From: Thermoplasmata archaeon
GTDB lineage: Archaea > Thermoplasmatota > Thermoplasmata > SG8-5 > JAGLSY01
Direction of reading: 5' to 3'
Assembly: GCA_023137005.1 (NCBI GenBank)
Contig: JAGLQE010000170.1
Span: 1-13,027 of the forward strand
Length of the DNA stretch: 13,027 nucleotides
The notes under the pieces are model-generated. The model did not search any database. It was not told the DNA's origin and saw nothing but the letters and a program-made list of their open reading frames with translations. Below, piece by piece: positions 1,185 to 13,027 of this stretch (position 1 is the stretch's first letter; each line of letters opens with the position of its first letter). Position numbers and translations under genes: made by a program.

Positions 1185-1559
1185 ATGGATCATTGGACCT
1201 GGAGGATGAAGAAGGTCGAGGAGATCGCCGCTGCTCTGGATGCTGAATTATACGGGGTGCAGGCACTCTATGTCTTCGGGAGTACGAAAGAGGCGACCGC
1301 AGGCCCAGCAAGTGATATTGACCTTCTGATACATTTCAATGGAAATGAGGAACAGGGAGATAACCTCGAATCGTGGCTGCATGAATGGAGTTTGAAGCTG
1401 GCCAAGGAAAATGAGGAAAGGACAGGCACCCTGGTGGAGGAAATATTGGACATTCACATGATCACTGATGAGGATATAAAGAACAAGACCTCGTGGGCGG
1501 TGCACATAGATTCACCACATCGTGCTGCAAAAAGGCTCCCATTGAGAAATGATGGTTGA
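1185..1559 (+). CDS. Stand-alone nucleotidyltransferase-domain protein (NTP_transf_2, pol-beta fold)
   Basis: A 124-residue protein with the nucleotidyltransferase signature: FGS at 31-33, then D44-I-D46 (SDIDLLIH), which in this superfamily bind metal and nucleotide. The last part (WSLKLAKENEERTG, DIHMITDEDIKNKTSWAVHI) resembles, from memory, the small nucleotidyltransferase domain found at the end of some PEP-synthase-like proteins; here it is a separate gene. Substrate and role are unknown. The start is ATG 1185, which has no Shine-Dalgarno site and may be leaderless. An in-frame ATG at 1206 has GGAGG directly against it, too close to serve it. The 3' end faces the phosphoesterase gene with only 3 bases between the stop codons. 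A MNT-type antitoxin is an alternative, but no HEPN partner is adjacent. Confidence 0.82.
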   Translation: MDHWTWRMKKVEEIAAALDAELYGVQALYVFGSTKEATAGPASDIDLLIHFNGNEEQGDNLESWLHEWSLKLAKENEERTGTLVEEILDIHMITDEDIKNKTSWAVHIDSPHRAAKRLPLRNDG

Positions 1560-7692: not shown

Positions 7693-9210
7693 GTGCCAGA
7701 TGATGAAAAAGAAATGATGGATAGCCCAATTGAGGAGGCAGATCGACCTCAAGCCGATAGGCCGACCTCCCACGCCCCCCCACCGGGAGCCGGGAGACAC
7801 ACAATGGGTGTCAAGACACTTCTGGGCGACCCGAAAAAAGCCATCATCAAGCTCGCGATCCCGATGATAATTGCCATGTCCATCCAGACCATTTACAATC
7901 TCGTGGACGCTCTCTGGGTATCCCTTCTTGGGCCAGAGGCATTATCCGCGGTCGGATTCTTCTTCCCATTCTTCTTCCTGCTCATAGCACTGGCCACTGG
8001 CCTGGGGGTTGGCGGAGGCGCGGCCGTATCCCGCAGAATAGGCGCGAATGATAAGGACGGGGCGGACAGTGTCGCGAGCCATACTATGGTGTTCATGGCA
8101 ATACTGGCCGTGCTGGTCACGATACCTTTCATGATCTCCATTCGGGCGATATACATCGGCATGGGGGCCGAGGGAATAGTCATTGACTGGGCTACGGATT
8201 ATTCACAGATCATCTTCGCCGGCGCCATTATCATCTTCTTTGCCAATGTTTCCAATGCCCTTCTGAGATCCGAGGGGGATGTGAAGAAGGCCATGCTGGC
8301 CATGGTATTGGGAGGTGTGCTGAATATCGTTCTCGACCCCATCTTCATATTCGGGCCAGGCACTCCCGGCATATTCGGGGAGTTCGGTTTCGGTCTGGGG
8401 GTCACGGGTGCCGCGTGGGCCACATTGATCTCAATGGCCTTGACATCGGCCATGCTGTTCTACTGGCTCTTCATAAAAAGGCAAACCTATCTGGATATTA
8501 GATTCAAGGGCTTCAAGTTCAATAAAGGCATCATCCGGGATATCTTCAAGGTCGGGCTCCCAGCCTCGGTCCAGCAACTTTCCATGTCCATAAATATGAT
8601 ATTCCTCAATGTGATAATCGTCATGGTGGCCGGGAATGATGGAGTGGCCATATTCACCACTGGCTGGAGGATAGCGATGCTTGGAATATTACCATTATTG
8701 GGGATCGCGACAGCGGTCATATCCGTATCCGGGGCCATGTACGGTAAAAAAGCCTACAGGAATATCAATATCGCACTGGACTACTCCATCAAGATCGGTT
8801 TCATCTTCGAATTCATCGTCATGCTCATCGTGATGATCTTCGCGGCCCAGATAGCCGGGATATTCACCACGGCCGATGCCTCGGCAAGACTGGCTCCCGG
8901 CCTGACCGTGTTCTTCCAGATATCCGCGCTCTTCTTCCCGGGTGTGGCATGGGGAATGCTGTCATCCTCCATGTTCCAGGGAGTGGGCGAAGGCTCCAAG
9001 GCTCTCACACTCACACTTCTCCGCACGGTGATACTCACACCACTGTTGGCAGTGCTATTTGTTTTCACGCTCGATATGGGGCTCGAAGGTGTTTGGTGGG
9101 GGCTGGTCGTGGCCAATGTCATAGGATCTATTGTGTCGTATGTATGGGCCAAAAGCTATCTGAAAAAACTGATGCGGAAGCGTAAAGCTAGCAAAACACC
9201 AACCCATTAA
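7693..9210 (+). CDS. MATE-family multidrug/cation antiporter
   Basis: An integral membrane transporter with about 12 helices that exports drugs or metabolites in exchange for H+ or Na+. The first helix is at about residues 51-77 (IIKLAIPMIIAMSIQTIYNL). GVGGGAAVSRRIGANDKDGA (105-124) is the conserved loop after helix 2 of MATE proteins, and the pseudo-repeat is seen in the second half (GLPASVQQLSMSINMIFLNV). Translation from GTG 7693 gives 505 residues with a hydrophilic, proline-rich tail of 37. From ATG 7804 (MGVKTLLGDPKKAII) it gives 468, the usual family length, and GGGAG lies shortly before it. The position of the TATA-like box favours the GTG; the conserved part begins near the ATG. The substrate is unknown. 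A hairpin follows the stop codon. Confidence 0.93.
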   Translation: MPDDEKEMMDSPIEEADRPQADRPTSHAPPPGAGRHTMGVKTLLGDPKKAIIKLAIPMIIAMSIQTIYNLVDALWVSLLGPEALSAVGFFFPFFFLLIALATGLGVGGGAAVSRRIGANDKDGADSVASHTMVFMAILAVLVTIPFMISIRAIYIGMGAEGIVIDWATDYSQIIFAGAIIIFFANVSNALLRSEGDVKKAMLAMVLGGVLNIVLDPIFIFGPGTPGIFGEFGFGLGVTGAAWATLISMALTSAMLFYWLFIKRQTYLDIRFKGFKFNKGIIRDIFKVGLPASVQQLSMSINMIFLNVIIVMVAGNDGVAIFTTGWRIAMLGILPLLGIATAVISVSGAMYGKKAYRNINIALDYSIKIGFIFEFIVMLIVMIFAAQIAGIFTTADASARLAPGLTVFFQISALFFPGVAWGMLSSSMFQGVGEGSKALTLTLLRTVILTPLLAVLFVFTLDMGLEGVWWGLVVANVIGSIVSYVWAKSYLKKLMRKRKASKTPTH

Positions 9211-9518
9211 ACATGCCCCGCCTGAAGAAAATTGTGGCCCCGGTTACCGGGTGGCCATATTTTCGAAGGTTGTGAGGGTAACTAGTGATGTTGGAACAGA
9301 CATTCACTCATTAGCTACATACGAGCAATCGCGAATAATGGAGAGGCGGGGTACTGGATTTGATGTATTAGCGAGTGACAATGCCAACTGGTATTCCGCG
9401 AACCTCGTCTAGAGGGCGAGGGGGTCTTCATCCTTTGAGACATTATTCCGACACACGCTGGTTGGGGAGATTCAATTCTTTTTCCCCCATAGATTGTAGC
9501 ATTTACTACATTCGGAAC
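9211..9518 (+). other. Non-coding stretch between MATE gene and AT-rich island
   Basis: No convincing ORF, tRNA or known RNA is seen. Besides the terminator candidate at 9233-9263 it has two further stems: CCTCG 9403-9407 with CGAGG 9417-9421, and GGGGAGA 9464-9470 with TTTCCCC 9481-9487 (one G-U pair). It also holds the first copy of an 11-base direct repeat, TGATGTATTAG (9361-9371), whose second copy (9532-9542) lies just after the island's TATA-like box. Composition is intermediate between the MATE gene and the island. Confidence 0.5.
9233..9263 (+). terminator. Hairpin and T-run after the MATE gene
   Basis: TGGCC-CCGG (9235-9243) pairs with CCGG-GGCCA (9247-9250 and 9253-9257) around a 3-base loop with a 2-base bulge. 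TATTTT (9258-9263) follows. It lies about 22 bases after the stop codon, as expected for a terminator. Confidence 0.6.
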
Positions 9519-9529
9519 ATTTAAATAAA
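9519..9529 (+). promoter_or_regulatory. TATA-like box of the AT-rich island operon
   Basis: ATTTAAATAAA is a good match to the archaeal TATA element. A start of transcription about 25 bases downstream would be near 9545-9550, giving a leader of about 200 bases before the first ORF at 9756. Confidence 0.5.
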
Positions 9530-9544
9530 CATGATGTATTAGGG

Positions 9545-9750
9545 GGTCAGTAAGAACGGACTGCTGCTATTATGGGATTGGTGGCTAAAGTTTTAACTTA
9601 CAAAAGCAACGCAGAGCAACGCAAAACAACTAACGTAAATGATAAGGGAGCCATACGTGTAGCACACGGGAAAAATGCTAAAAGCCCCCCAATAGGAGAT
9701 GAAAAAATCTACAACCTCTGGGGTTCGGGGGGCTACCCGGAAAGGAGGTG
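9545..9750 (+). ncRNA. Structured leader RNA candidate of the island operon
   Basis: This stretch has much potential structure. Bases 9683-9690 (AGCCCCCC) pair exactly with 9727-9734 (GGGGGGCT), enclosing AGG and AGAT (9694-9700) that can pair with ATCT and CCT (9707-9717). Upstream, CGTGT 9656-9660 pairs with ACACG 9664-9668, competing with TAGCA 9660-9664 with TGCTA 9676-9680. GGGAGCC 9646-9652 can pair with GGCTACCC 9731-9738 (one bulge), competing with the 8-bp stem. ACCTC (9713-9717) can pair with GAGGT of the Shine-Dalgarno site at 9745-9749. A tandem repeat AGCAACGCA occurs at 9605-9613 and 9615-9623. It could be a regulatory leader or a functional RNA; no known family is recognised. 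Confidence 0.45.
9741..9750 (+). promoter_or_regulatory. Perfect Shine-Dalgarno site of the 34-residue ORF
   Basis: AAAGGAGGTG ends 5 bases before the ATG at 9756. It is the strongest ribosome binding site in the window and the main reason for calling the very short ORF behind it. Confidence 0.8.
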
Positions 9751-9755
9751 TGTAG

Positions 9756-9860
9756 ATGAAGGAAGAAATAGTCGCGATAGCACTAAAAGTACTGATTGAA
9801 GAAATCGCAAAACGGGTCGCAAAAAAGGCCGGTCGTAAGGATAAAAAAGTGAAAAGATGA
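9756..9860 (+). CDS. Small basic protein, 34 residues, first ORF of the island operon
   Basis: The ATG at 9756 follows a perfect Shine-Dalgarno site. The product begins MKEEIVAIALKVLIEEIAKR, a likely amphipathic or hydrophobic helix over residues 2-22, and ends in a strongly basic tail (KKAGRKDKKVKR). The TGA overlaps the ATG of the winged-helix gene by ATGA. It could be a small nucleic-acid or membrane-binding peptide, a small antitoxin or toxin, or only a leader peptide that sets translation of the regulator by coupling. No family recognised. Confidence 0.65.
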   Translation: MKEEIVAIALKVLIEEIAKRVAKKAGRKDKKVKR

Positions 9861-10174
9861 CACTAAATGAAAAATGGTTGAAAAACCAAGTGTTGAAAGA
9901 CACTCTCAATTTATTTAAGGTTGGGTGTGACGATAAGAACTACAAAATATTACTGATGGTGCCAACTACTATTGAGGAGGTTCAAATTAACCTCAATTTG
10001 AGCACCGTTAAATCTGCATACACTAGAGTAAATGCCCTAGAAGATTCGGGTTTAGTAATTAGAGAAAGAGGGAACGGAATGGTAAAACCATCTCCAATGA
10101 CAGAGAGTTTTTTAGATATTATTGAACACATATCAACAGAAGTTATCAATGCCGTACCAAAATACATTGAGTAA
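9857..10174 (+). CDS. Winged helix-turn-helix transcriptional regulator
   Basis: A 105-residue DNA-binding protein. After a helix at 5-22, residues 28-36 (NYKILLMVP) match the first helix of ArsR/MarR-like winged domains. TTIEEVQINLNLSTVKSAYT (37-56) is the helix-turn-helix, with the recognition helix at about 49-62, and GLVIRERGNGMVKPSPM (65-81) is the wing with the usual final strand. A C-terminal helix (about 82-98) may dimerise. It overlaps the 34-residue ORF by 4 bases and has no Shine-Dalgarno site of its own, so it depends on coupling. As the regulator of a small operon it probably controls its own promoter at about 9519. Sampled GC is about 33%. Confidence 0.82.
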   Translation: MTLNEKWLKNQVLKDTLNLFKVGCDDKNYKILLMVPTTIEEVQINLNLSTVKSAYTRVNALEDSGLVIRERGNGMVKPSPMTESFLDIIEHISTEVINAVPKYIE

Positions 10175-10207
10175 TTAATTCCAAACACTCTTAGGTTAAT
10201 TTGGTGA

Positions 10208-10214
10208 GGAGGTG
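10208..10214 (+). promoter_or_regulatory. Shine-Dalgarno site that sets the start of the 329-residue ORF
   Basis: GGAGGTG lies 6 bases before GTG 10221. The frame also has a GTG at 10212, but that codon is part of this site, so 10221 is the better start. Confidence 0.7.
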
Positions 10215-10220
10215 GAAGAG

Positions 10221-11210
10221 GTGGAAATAAAAGATGAGTGGAAGATAGAGCTACCAAAGCCACCAGAAAATGAAAAATGGGTCTATTATCCCTGTATAAC
10301 AAATATTTCTGGTGATGAGATTATGACTTTCGATAACTTCAGAAATAGAATTCTAATTGATTTTTTACTATTTGACAAGATAGTAATCGATAATAAAATT
10401 ATGATGATAATGCGCTTACCAGATCAAGATAATACATTAGGCCATATAATAACCGATGAGAATGATCAATATTATGAAGCATATACTATGATTGAAAATG
10501 AAAAAAATAAACAAGATAGGCAATTTCAGACAGGCGGAATGGATGTAAGAGAATACTTAACTGGAGATCCCAAGAAATGGGCTCAACAAATATTTAATGA
10601 AGATGTCATTAAAAAAAGCAATGCATTCATATTTACTGATATCTGTAATAATGAAACAAGAAGAATTATCGGGAATAAAAGCGCGTATGCTAGCAGACCT
10701 CTAATTACAGGATGGCCTGACTTAGATGGTGAAATAGCAATGGGGGTGAATATTGCTAAACAAATATCAAATAGCATTGGTCATCCGACATCAATGAGCC
10801 AGCTTCATATGTTTTCTATGAATAAACCTGAGATATCACATAATAATTCTAAAATTGTGAATCTCCCCATTCAGAATTTACCCGTTAGCAATTTCTTTGA
10901 TGATCAAATAGCTGGAGATGATTTACTTTATCTACGCTCAGATCCTATTATAAATGATTTTAGAAATTGTGTATTTGATTTTGCAGATGAAAAGAAAAAT
11001 ATGTTATCATTAGAGGAGTATAATGAGAGCAATATCAAAGATTTAGATAATAAATTTATAATGGTAACAAATGAAATCATTCAGTCTATGAATAGACAAG
11101 TTACTAAAATAAAATTTAAGCTTGATTTTGCTATAAATGATGAACACGAATATGATAATTCCCCTACATATTCTTCTTGGATGGCAACTAGTAGTAAACA
11201 AATAAAATAA
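10221..11210 (+). CDS. Unrecognised 329-residue protein of the AT-rich island
   Basis: I do not recognise this protein. The start is GTG 10221 behind GGAGGTG (an in-frame GTG at 10212 would add three residues). It looks soluble: no signal peptide or membrane helix, rich in Asn, Asp, Ile and Lys. The N-terminal third has hydrophobic strand-like runs (WVYYPCITNI, NRILIDFLLFDKIVIDNKIM) suggesting an alpha/beta core. The middle has a D/N-rich segment, and the C-terminal part contains a probable helix (NKFIMVTNEIIQSMNRQVTK). No nucleotide-binding loop, protease or nuclease motif is evident. It follows the regulator by 46 bases and precedes the R-x4-H protein by 19, so it is probably in one operon with both. 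The very low GC suggests acquisition by transfer. Confidence 0.8.
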   Translation: MEIKDEWKIELPKPPENEKWVYYPCITNISGDEIMTFDNFRNRILIDFLLFDKIVIDNKIMMIMRLPDQDNTLGHIITDENDQYYEAYTMIENEKNKQDRQFQTGGMDVREYLTGDPKKWAQQIFNEDVIKKSNAFIFTDICNNETRRIIGNKSAYASRPLITGWPDLDGEIAMGVNIAKQISNSIGHPTSMSQLHMFSMNKPEISHNNSKIVNLPIQNLPVSNFFDDQIAGDDLLYLRSDPIINDFRNCVFDFADEKKNMLSLEEYNESNIKDLDNKFIMVTNEIIQSMNRQVTKIKFKLDFAINDEHEYDNSPTYSSWMATSSKQIK

Positions 11211-11229
11211 TAATGGAGATTATATAGCT

Positions 11230-11829
11230 ATGGTTCAAATGTGGATAACACCAAAAAGTAAGGCCAATGAATTTGATAATCCCCTTAATATCGAAGATAA
11301 AATTAGAATTTTTGAAGAGCAAGTTCTAGGGTGGCAAATTGAAATAGCAGAAAAATTAGCAACCGTACCAGATTCAGGATATGGGGTTTTAGCGATTATG
11401 TTCAGCTATTTTGAAATGATTGCAAAATTTTATGATGGCTATGGCGGCTATTCCAAAAGTGAAAAATATTTTAACAATGGCTTTTTGATGGTTTTTGTTG
11501 ATGTAAAAGAGATAGATAAAAAGGAAATAAAGTCTGCTTTAAAAATATTATATCAAAGCGGCAGATGTGGACAATATCATTCAGGATTAGCTGAGGGGAA
11601 GATATTTTTATCTGGTTCTATTCAACATGCCATTGAATTCAATCCTGAAATTGAAGGTATATTCATAAATCCAGAAAAATTAATAAGTGCTATTAAGCAG
11701 CACTTTTATGAATATGTAGCTAAATTAAAAAATACTAATAATGATGAACTAAGAGCTAACTTTGAAAGGCGATTTAATTTTATAAAAAAGTATAATGATG
11801 ATATCAAAACACCAGTTAGTTTTAAATAA
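11230..11829 (+). CDS. 199-residue protein with R-x4-H motif (possible HEPN-like)
   Basis: The ATG at 11230 is preceded by GGAGAT (11215-11220), 9 bases away. The protein is probably mostly helical: a hydrophobic helix at about 50-69 (GYGVLAIMFSYFEMIAKFYD), another at 99-110 (EIKSALKILYQS) leading into R112-CGQY-H117, and a long helix at about 149-170 after FINPEKL. R-x4-6-H after a helix is the catalytic signature of HEPN-domain ribonucleases of toxin-antitoxin, CRISPR and abortive-infection systems, and similar R-C-G-x-x-H segments occur in several uncharacterised families. The fold is not proven and the motif is short. It is the last gene of the operon; lpdA converges with 15 bases between the ends. 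Confidence 0.78.
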   Translation: MVQMWITPKSKANEFDNPLNIEDKIRIFEEQVLGWQIEIAEKLATVPDSGYGVLAIMFSYFEMIAKFYDGYGGYSKSEKYFNNGFLMVFVDVKEIDKKEIKSALKILYQSGRCGQYHSGLAEGKIFLSGSIQHAIEFNPEIEGIFINPEKLISAIKQHFYEYVAKLKNTNNDELRANFERRFNFIKKYNDDIKTPVSFK

Positions 11830-11844: not shown

Positions 11845-13027
11845 TCACTCCACCAGCCCTCTCGCCCCTTCCCAAATCCCCTCAGCCAGCGTCGGATGCG
11901 GGTGGATGATCTTCGAAATATCTTTGGCAGTAAGTCCCTTCTCGATGGCCAGAGTGATCTCTGAAATAAGATTGGATGCTTCATGGCCAACGATCGTGCC
12001 CCCTATGATCTTTCCATCGGTATCTGTAAGAAGCTTGACAAAGCCCTCTTTCTCGTCCATGGCCAGTGCCTTGCCCAGGGCCGCGAAATAATAGCGCTTT
12101 GACAGGTATTCAATGCCCTTTTCCTTTGCCTCCCACTCGTGCAGGCCCGCACTTGCGAGCTCGGGTTCGGTGAACAGGACATAGGGGATGACGGGTTCTT
12201 TTGCATCTCCTTTTCCAAGGATGGTGCAGGCAACTCTGATGCCGTCCATCGATGCTTTGTGGGCGAGCATGGGGTTTCCTCTAATGTCCCCGATGGCGAA
12301 GATGCTGGCAATGCTGGTTCGCAATTCGGAATTCGTCTTGACGAATCCATCATCGTCCAGCAGAATTCTCACATCCTCCAATCCCAGTTCCTCCAGGTTA
12401 GGCCGGCTGCCGACCCCGATAAGTATCTTCTCGAATTCCACAGTATCGGTTCCCGATGGGCTGTGGATGTTCACGCTGACATTATTCTCGCTCATGCTGT
12501 TTAACTTCGCCTGGCTTCCCATGTGCAGGGTGATGCCCAGGTTCTTCAAGCCCTTCTTGATGGTCCGGGTGACATCATCATCAGAGAATGGCAATATGTC
12601 ATCCAATATCTCGATTATCGTGATATCACAGCCGAGCTTGGCCATGACGGTTGCCAGCTCAAGTCCTACAACACCACCGCCGACAACGCACATTGAGGAT
12701 GGGATATGATCCAGTTCCAGAAGTCCGGTGGAGCTCATGATGGTTTTTTCATCTATATCGAAACCAGGAACATCTCGCGGGCTTGAGCCCGTGGCCAGTA
12801 TGATGTTCTCGGCCATGATATCCTCATCCGGGTTTCCATCTGCAAAATGAATATTCACACTCTTTTCTGAAGTCAATTTAGCAGTTCCATGAAGTATATC
12901 CACGCCCGCCTTCTTGCACTGACTCTCGATGCCCTTCACCATCTTGTTGATAATGCCCTCTTTCCATTCCTGGATGCGGGTCATGTCAATGGCTAGCTCG
13001 CCCAGTTCAATGCCGATGCCGCTCGCC
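11845..13027 (-). CDS. lpdA: Dihydrolipoyl dehydrogenase (N-terminus beyond window)
   Basis: The visible 393 residues are the middle and C-terminal parts of a flavin disulfide reductase that reoxidises dihydrolipoamide of 2-oxoacid dehydrogenase or glycine cleavage complexes with NAD+. The reading frame is open to the right edge, so the ATG at 12984 is internal; the FAD-binding GxGxxG and the redox-active Cys pair must lie outside. Seen here: LATGSSPRDVPG, the NAD-binding VVGGGVVGLELATVMAKLG, the FAD-contacting SIFAIGDIRGNPMLAHKAS, the dimerisation domain beginning PYVLFTEPELASAG, and the catalytic HPHPTLAEG near the end, whose His-Glu pair is the mark of lipoamide dehydrogenase rather than mercuric reductase. 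No E1, E2 or glycine cleavage gene is in the window; a partner role with glyA in glycine metabolism is possible but not shown. Confidence 0.92.
   Translation of the reverse strand, partial: ASGIGIELGELAIDMTRIQEWKEGIINKMVKGIESQCKKAGVDILHGTAKLTSEKSVNIHFADGNPDEDIMAENIILATGSSPRDVPGFDIDEKTIMSSTGLLELDHIPSSMCVVGGGVVGLELATVMAKLGCDITIIEILDDILPFSDDDVTRTIKKGLKNLGITLHMGSQAKLNSMSENNVSVNIHSPSGTDTVEFEKILIGVGSRPNLEELGLEDVRILLDDDGFVKTNSELRTSIASIFAIGDIRGNPMLAHKASMDGIRVACTILGKGDAKEPVIPYVLFTEPELASAGLHEWEAKEKGIEYLSKRYYFAALGKALAMDEKEGFVKLLTDTDGKIIGGTIVGHEASNLISEITLAIEKGLTAKDISKIIHPHPTLAEGIWEGARGLVE

Follow-up and report, generated by a model that had tools for sequence, protein, structure and literature searches.

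An AT-rich island in a Thermoplasmata archaeon encodes a predicted HEPN-type ribonuclease behind a micro-ORF and a winged-helix regulator

Ribonucleases of the HEPN superfamily carry an Rx4-6H motif as their main active site, typically but not obligatorily with a polar residue (mostly Asn, Asp or His) after the Arg, and many of the families, not all, possess a second acidic residue on the N-terminal side of the motif, often as Ex3[KR]; an antitoxin-first gene order was also noted (available text of PMC3710099). Their fold is purely helical, with helix 3 ending in the motif. The window analyzed here is an entire 13,027-bp contig (JAGLQE010000170.1) of a Thermoplasmata archaeon, whose assembly (GCA_023137005.1) comprises 2.01 Mb in 459 contigs and is 79% complete. 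An exosome-subunit domain (ECR1_N) and a TATA-like box are likewise signs of an archaeal source. Between a MATE transporter gene (7693-9210) and the convergent dihydrolipoamide dehydrogenase-like gene lpdA (stop at 11845), it holds an AT-rich island with four co-directed open reading frames (ORF1 to ORF4; 34, 105, 329 and 199 aa), the last of which looks like a HEPN-type ribonuclease of a previously unnamed family. We read the island as horizontally acquired and made up of two modules, with a ribonuclease-effector pair for defence or addiction as its cargo. The chances of this reading are judged to be about even, and our confidence in any single step of its mechanism is lower than that.

ORF4 (11230-11829, forward strand like all features of the island) possesses both R112-CGQY-H117, an Rx4H motif as the original prediction had pointed out, and the upstream acidic residue in an Ex3[KR] setting, E62-MIA-K66. 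A search with a four-sequence profile reached 217 proteins of its family. Among the best 120 of these 217, which were listed and aligned, E62, C113 and H117 are found in all 120, R112 in 119, and Lys or Arg at position 66 in 117. A further alignment (A3) of 57 members, picked by hand among the 120, shows R112, C113, H117 and E62 in every row, and Ex3[KR] together with Rx4H in 55 rows. Rx4H is present in nine of the ten relatives whose loci were read, the tenth being truncated by a contig end. The Glu is kept and the Lys lost in the distant relatives from genomes G027 (YFEAHAI) and G202 (LIETLQ), and an E-x3-[KR]-type site was not found by pattern in the relatives from Synechocystis and Sinorhizobium fredii. 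Six of the loci were selected by the pattern YFEMIAK and thus give no independent support for ExxxK.

The ten loci belong to G027 and G202 of the same phylum, to plasmids of Synechocystis PCC 6714 and S. fredii, and to six further contigs from Dehalococcoidales, Thermincola (two), Verrucomicrobiales, Anaerolineaceae and Deltaproteobacteria, with at least 4.5 kb upstream in nine and at least 4 kb downstream in seven. Defence or toxin-antitoxin (TA) genes are neighbours at three of them. In G202 the relative is part of a defence island (L016, 3963-9773) and is oriented divergently from LmuA, beyond which come LmuC (assigned at E 3.7e-5 only), LmuB, AbiEii and AbiEi; a methyltransferase with a Mrr-type domain lies 3.5 kb from the relative in G027; and the relative on the Synechocystis plasmid is found among genes annotated as VapC/Phd, YhaV/PrlF and PIN/HicB. 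One gene of the S. fredii locus matches DUF6538. A TA or defence role had been put forward as a guess; it is now moderately supported, on sequence grounds, because ORF4 has both HEPN hallmarks and relatives in such neighbourhoods. No component of a catalogued anti-phage system in PADLOC matches any of the four ORFs at E 1.

Two proteins from Thermincola metagenome-assembled genomes (L011, 6001-7131; L012, 6007-7185) consist of an ORF4-family domain fused to a glycosylase of the uracil-DNA glycosylase (UDG) superfamily (Pfam PF03167, E 2.7e-14 and 2.1e-8), and are predicted to combine a ribonuclease with base excision in one protein. Glycosylases are known as antiviral proteins in prokaryotes (available text of PMC11078745), from which we infer a link to the ORF4 family. 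A literature search on HEPN with uracil-DNA glycosylase gave no such fusion among the titles of the matches listed. In G027, a 433-aa protein (L005, 9467-10768) adjoins the ORF4 relative; it carries RGLLLHG near its C-terminus, has no Pfam match at E 0.1, and by eye is similar to ApeA-type HEPN proteins.

That the block is foreign, as the original prediction suspected, and was horizontally acquired is supported by its extreme composition and by one relative in which the site is empty. The guanine plus cytosine (GC) content is 39% in ORF1, 35% in ORF2, and 30% in both ORF3 and ORF4, against 53% in the MATE gene. Third positions of ORF3 and ORF4 have 22-24% GC; in six of the other genes in the window the values are 47-53% overall and 57-66% at third positions. 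The contrast claimed before, 27-33% in the coding part against 58% in the MATE gene, thus stands in kind but not in its figures. With 29.9%, the ORF3-ORF4 stretch lies about 7 standard deviations under the genome sample (mean 46.7%, standard deviation 2.4, minimum 39.1%), and none of the 412 sampled windows is as low. The sampled windows, each of 1.6 kb, overlap, are free of N and were drawn from 16 loci (106 kb) of this genome. Three of these loci were chosen for carrying the repeat at 9209-9458 described below; seven of 23 loci were all N and were dropped. Seven of 20 sampled contigs of this genome (C1, C20, C30, C40, C50, C60 and C90, all under 3 kb) are N throughout, so that no genome-wide absence is claimed as far as those contigs are concerned.

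Homologues of lpdA (46%) and of the MATE gene (52%, truncated at the contig end) are adjacent and convergent, with a 35-base overlap, in G002 of the same family, where the site is accordingly empty. G002 is the only one of 20 relatives searched in which these closer homologues occur together and which is therefore comparable. Convergent pairs of paralogous lpd (29%) and MATE (26-27%) genes also exist in G004 (C110), G005 (C164), G006 (L028) and G009 (L027), with about 0.95 kb between the match ends and, in G009, two ORFs (114 and 152 aa) in the gap; these weaker, paralogous pairs are uninformative on the island site and were set aside. The presence of the genes is patchy: ORF2 was found in three of 300 genomes of the class, ORF3 in one of 150 (its own) and ORF4 in two of 150 (its own and G027). 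By profile, ORF4 is found in three of 389 genomes, one of them with a weak match containing an in-frame stop.

ORF3 (10221-11210), described earlier as an unrecognised protein, is close to an orphan. When 5.8 billion proteins were searched by word seeds, which yielded 547 candidates, a single relative passed E 0.001, namely P0002 with 80% identity. Searches of Pfam, NCBIfam, PADLOC, PHROGs, PDB sequences, phages, plasmids and 149 other genomes gave nothing significant. We set its start at the GTG at 10221, preceded by a good Shine-Dalgarno (SD) sequence (GGAGGTGG); the ORF list has the GTG at 10212, but the lengths of the two copies in the database are 329 and 330 aa. P0002 and the 71% identical ORF4 relative P0004 each have a longest contig of 6173 bp and are thus presumably neighbours, and ORF3 and ORF4 appear to travel as a pair. 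For proteins identical to ORF3 and ORF4, the database gives 41,796 bp as the length of the longest contig, which means that the block is no artefact confined to the contig analyzed here.

A TATA-like box (TTTAAATAAA, 9520-9529), by sequence an archaeal-type promoter, precedes the four ORFs, which are spaced by -4, +46 and +19 bases, with 15 bases left between the end of ORF4 and that of lpdA; box, ORFs, ATGA overlap and short gaps are all where they had been described. The structured leader proposed alongside them is borne out in part. The entire leader is not exceptionally stable (z -1.1, with 27 of 200 shuffles as good), but a 13-bp stem in it (hairpin 9707-9757; arm 9707-9719 with 9744-9757) masks the SD (GGAGGT, 9744-9749) and extends over two bases of the ORF1 start codon, the first and the second. 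The duplex has -16.9 kcal/mol; among 1000 shuffled leaders, 12 reach this strength, and the SD is hidden equally well in 14 of 300. ORF1 (9756-9860) encodes, as claimed, a basic microprotein; it has a net charge of +7, and its amphipathic character is not significant (1558 of 5000 shuffles as high). ORF2 (9857-10174), which overlaps it at ATGA, is by profile match a winged-helix transcription regulator, in line with the earlier assignment: the three-sequence family profile (A4) matches MJ223 (1ku9) at E 2.5e-4. Its match to the TrmB profile (E 0.019) falls under the cut-off of that profile, and the single sequence matched no solved chain at E 1.

Besides its own genome, the ORF2 family is found in G080 (43%) and G022 (32%), the three belonging to three different families. 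A micro-ORF with a lysine-rich stretch precedes the winged-helix gene in both, and that of G022 runs on to overlap it. Position is the stronger argument for the relatedness of these micro-ORFs, whose peptides are only modestly similar (shuffles as good: 127 of 5000 for the window and G080, 721 of 5000 for the window and G022, 9 of 5000 for G080 and G022). Stretches of 15.4 and 6.5 kb surrounding the two genes were read, and the ORF3 and ORF4 profiles have no match there. The micro-ORF with the winged-helix gene is better seen as a unit of its own, separate from ORF3-ORF4. The proposal that all four genes form one conserved system is not supported and was rejected, given their unlinked relatives: those of ORF2 occur without ORF3 and ORF4 at both loci read, and in ten loci with those of ORF4 no ORF3 was found. 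Homologues unlinked elsewhere were the outcome that the original prediction had named as speaking against it, and this holds in part, as only ORF3 and ORF4 appear to travel together. Further winged-helix matches in the phylum (35 of 389 genomes at E 0.001) are partial and at E 1.6e-5 or weaker in all but the own gene; the ORFs at the loci read are by eye mostly of the general Lrp/MarR/ArsR type with no convincing micro-ORF, and the weak matches in G484 and G119 were dismissed like the rest.

In the mechanism that we propose, module 1 (leader, ORF1 and ORF2) would be a portable control cassette and module 2 (ORF3 and ORF4) the cargo. The SD-masking stem, together with the strict coupling of ATGA-overlapping gene pairs that Haloferax volcanii and E. 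coli showed in 13 of 14 cases (available text of PMC6728339), suggests a switch in which the leader would hide the ribosome site of the micro-ORF; once it opens, ORF1 would be translated, and ORF2 after it by coupling at the overlap. The ORF2 protein probably represses its own promoter. ORF4 would act as a metal-independent HEPN-type ribonuclease that arrests growth once released, and ORF3, lying upstream as is usual for antitoxins, would be its inhibitor or a sensor of infection. This agrees with the antitoxin-first order described in PMC3710099. Silencing of ORF4 would come from ORF3 and from low expression of the gated, self-repressed operon, and its release from infection or loss of ORF3. 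What is observed is the anatomy of the block, its foreign composition, the empty site in G002, the hallmark residues and the defence genes beside some relatives of ORF4; ribonuclease activity, the role of ORF3, repression by ORF2 and the defence role are what we infer here.

The 310 bp separating the MATE stop from the TATA-like box consist mostly of a dispersed repeat (9209-9458), which lies outside the operon and possibly forms the 5' border of the island. Three more contigs of this genome match it, a fourth holds shorter pieces, and core matches, also shorter, occur in G001, G004, G006, G007 and G011 (copies: window 9209-9458; L110 1-238; L111 3045-3201; L112 2657-2954; L113-L122). With at most four first-look candidates scored per genome, it was found in six of 13 genomes of its order and in none of 107 others. 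The repeat has a conserved linker around TTAGCGAGTGAC and holds two or three hairpins, the arms of which covary in several copies. Its closing stem has seven of seven positions paired in seven of the 14 extracted rows, one of them with an altered pair set; three rows pair six of seven, two pair fewer with an arm that is probably misplaced, and two are without the arm at a contig end. One row resembles a chance match. The single-sequence fold has a z of -2.75, with 2 of 200 shuffles equally good. Rfam gave no match within the window and none on the repeat in eight loci at E 1, the tRNA and C/D-box small RNA matches there lying elsewhere. The repeat is possibly an undescribed structured RNA or an element resembling miniature inverted-repeat transposable elements, and may mark an insertion-prone site; mobilisation of the island by it is without support. 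Inverted repeats inside the block are not significant, as assessed with no control. Elsewhere in the window (1185-1559), a 124-aa minimal nucleotidyltransferase is encoded (NTP_transf_2, E 7e-10), by eye with no HEPN-like partner adjoining it in the ORF list.

Several results weigh against the reading of the island as ribonuclease-effector cargo. The residue after the Arg of the motif is Cys in all 120 aligned members rather than the polar Asn, Asp or His, and Asn occurs there only in the Anaerolineaceae relative (L014). ORF4 has no profile match better than E 0.011 in Pfam, NCBIfam, PADLOC and PHROGs; its 57 aligned members match no HEPN model in Pfam, NCBIfam and PADLOC, the best stray being JetC (E 0.002, one member); and the family alignment matched no solved structure at E 10. 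Comparison by hhalign with an ApeA-type HEPN protein, both as a domain and in full length, and with the 433-aa neighbour in G027 gave 0.1-0.2%, against 0.1-0.6% in controls, single sequences making this a weak test. By eye, seven of the ten loci are without a defence gene; profile search there covered the fusions to a glycosylase and a single gene of S. fredii. The ORF3 HMM, run on the loci fetched up to that point, finds the window gene only and is silent in all ten loci of ORF4 relatives (nine hold the upstream side), so ORF3 does not appear to be an obligatory partner of the family. The empty site, moreover, is known from the single relative G002. ORF4 could be HEPN-like in fold but no toxin, namely an RNA-binding protein or housekeeping ribonuclease in a stress-response operon under ORF2; the atypical Cys and the seven loci without defence neighbours agree with this, and the bacterial relatives read resemble single genes without a common partner. 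We regard it as unlikely in view of the nearly invariant Arg and His, the defence or TA neighbourhoods at three of the ten loci, and the strong sign of horizontal transfer.

In another explanation, the block is the remnant of an integrated plasmid or virus, with the micro-ORF and the winged-helix gene as its control genes and ORF3 and ORF4 as incidental, non-defence cargo. An AT-rich block with a near-orphan ORF3, a patchy winged-helix family and a repeat at its 5' border would suit such a remnant. However, no integrase, replication or structural gene was recognised in the block with Pfam, NCBIfam, PADLOC and PHROGs, and a viral or plasmid origin is not supported by homology, ORF2 and ORF3 having no match in phages or plasmids. 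ORF4 has no match in phages and two distant ones in plasmids, and none of the three matched viral contigs with the patterns used. ORF3 and ORF4 are also intact and apparently kept as a pair, which makes the remnant a doubtful explanation.

Seen as acquired defence or addiction cargo, the island offers a concrete candidate effector: a member of a large family of small proteins (217 in one search) that carries HEPN hallmarks and yet goes unrecognised by Pfam, NCBIfam and PADLOC in the 57 members scanned. Base excision and RNA cleavage may be linked, as the two fusions to a glycosylase suggest, and the micro-ORF/winged-helix pair is a simple model of how archaeal islands may silence dangerous cargo. 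A more far-reaching and rather improbable version would have ORF3-ORF4 as an archaeal antiviral pair of a new kind: ORF3 would sense infection and unleash a ribonuclease of a new HEPN family. In the bacterial relatives fused to a glycosylase, recognition of odd bases in viral DNA would trigger shut-down through RNA cleavage, and the micro-ORF with the winged-helix gene would be a switch that is independent, portable and translation-gated, and that archaea place before such cargo.

The island shares with CapK-CapS and the WYL-domain CBASS regulator, as described in the available text of PMC13373217 and PMC9122588, a small DNA-binding regulator before the effector genes, and differs by having a solitary winged-helix protein behind a micro-ORF and a structured leader, which occurs elsewhere without ORF3 and ORF4. 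Type II TA dyads such as MNT (minimal nucleotidyltransferase)-HEPN resemble ORF3-ORF4 in that the two genes are adjacent and co-directed, with an unassigned gene 5' of the predicted ribonuclease. ORF3, in contrast, has 329 aa, matches no nucleotidyltransferase or known antitoxin profile, and is not found near ORF4 relatives in the ten loci read. Compared with the HEPN ribonucleases of PMC3710099, ORF4 stands apart by the Cys after the Arg, by matching no curated HEPN profile, the likeness being one of sequence motifs, and, in its family, by the UDG-superfamily fusions of Thermincola, the word glycosylase being absent from the available text of that survey. It is like them in its Rx4H motif, in the upstream acidic residue within ExxxK and in being a small protein, with some relatives of the family near restriction-modification, Abi or TA genes.

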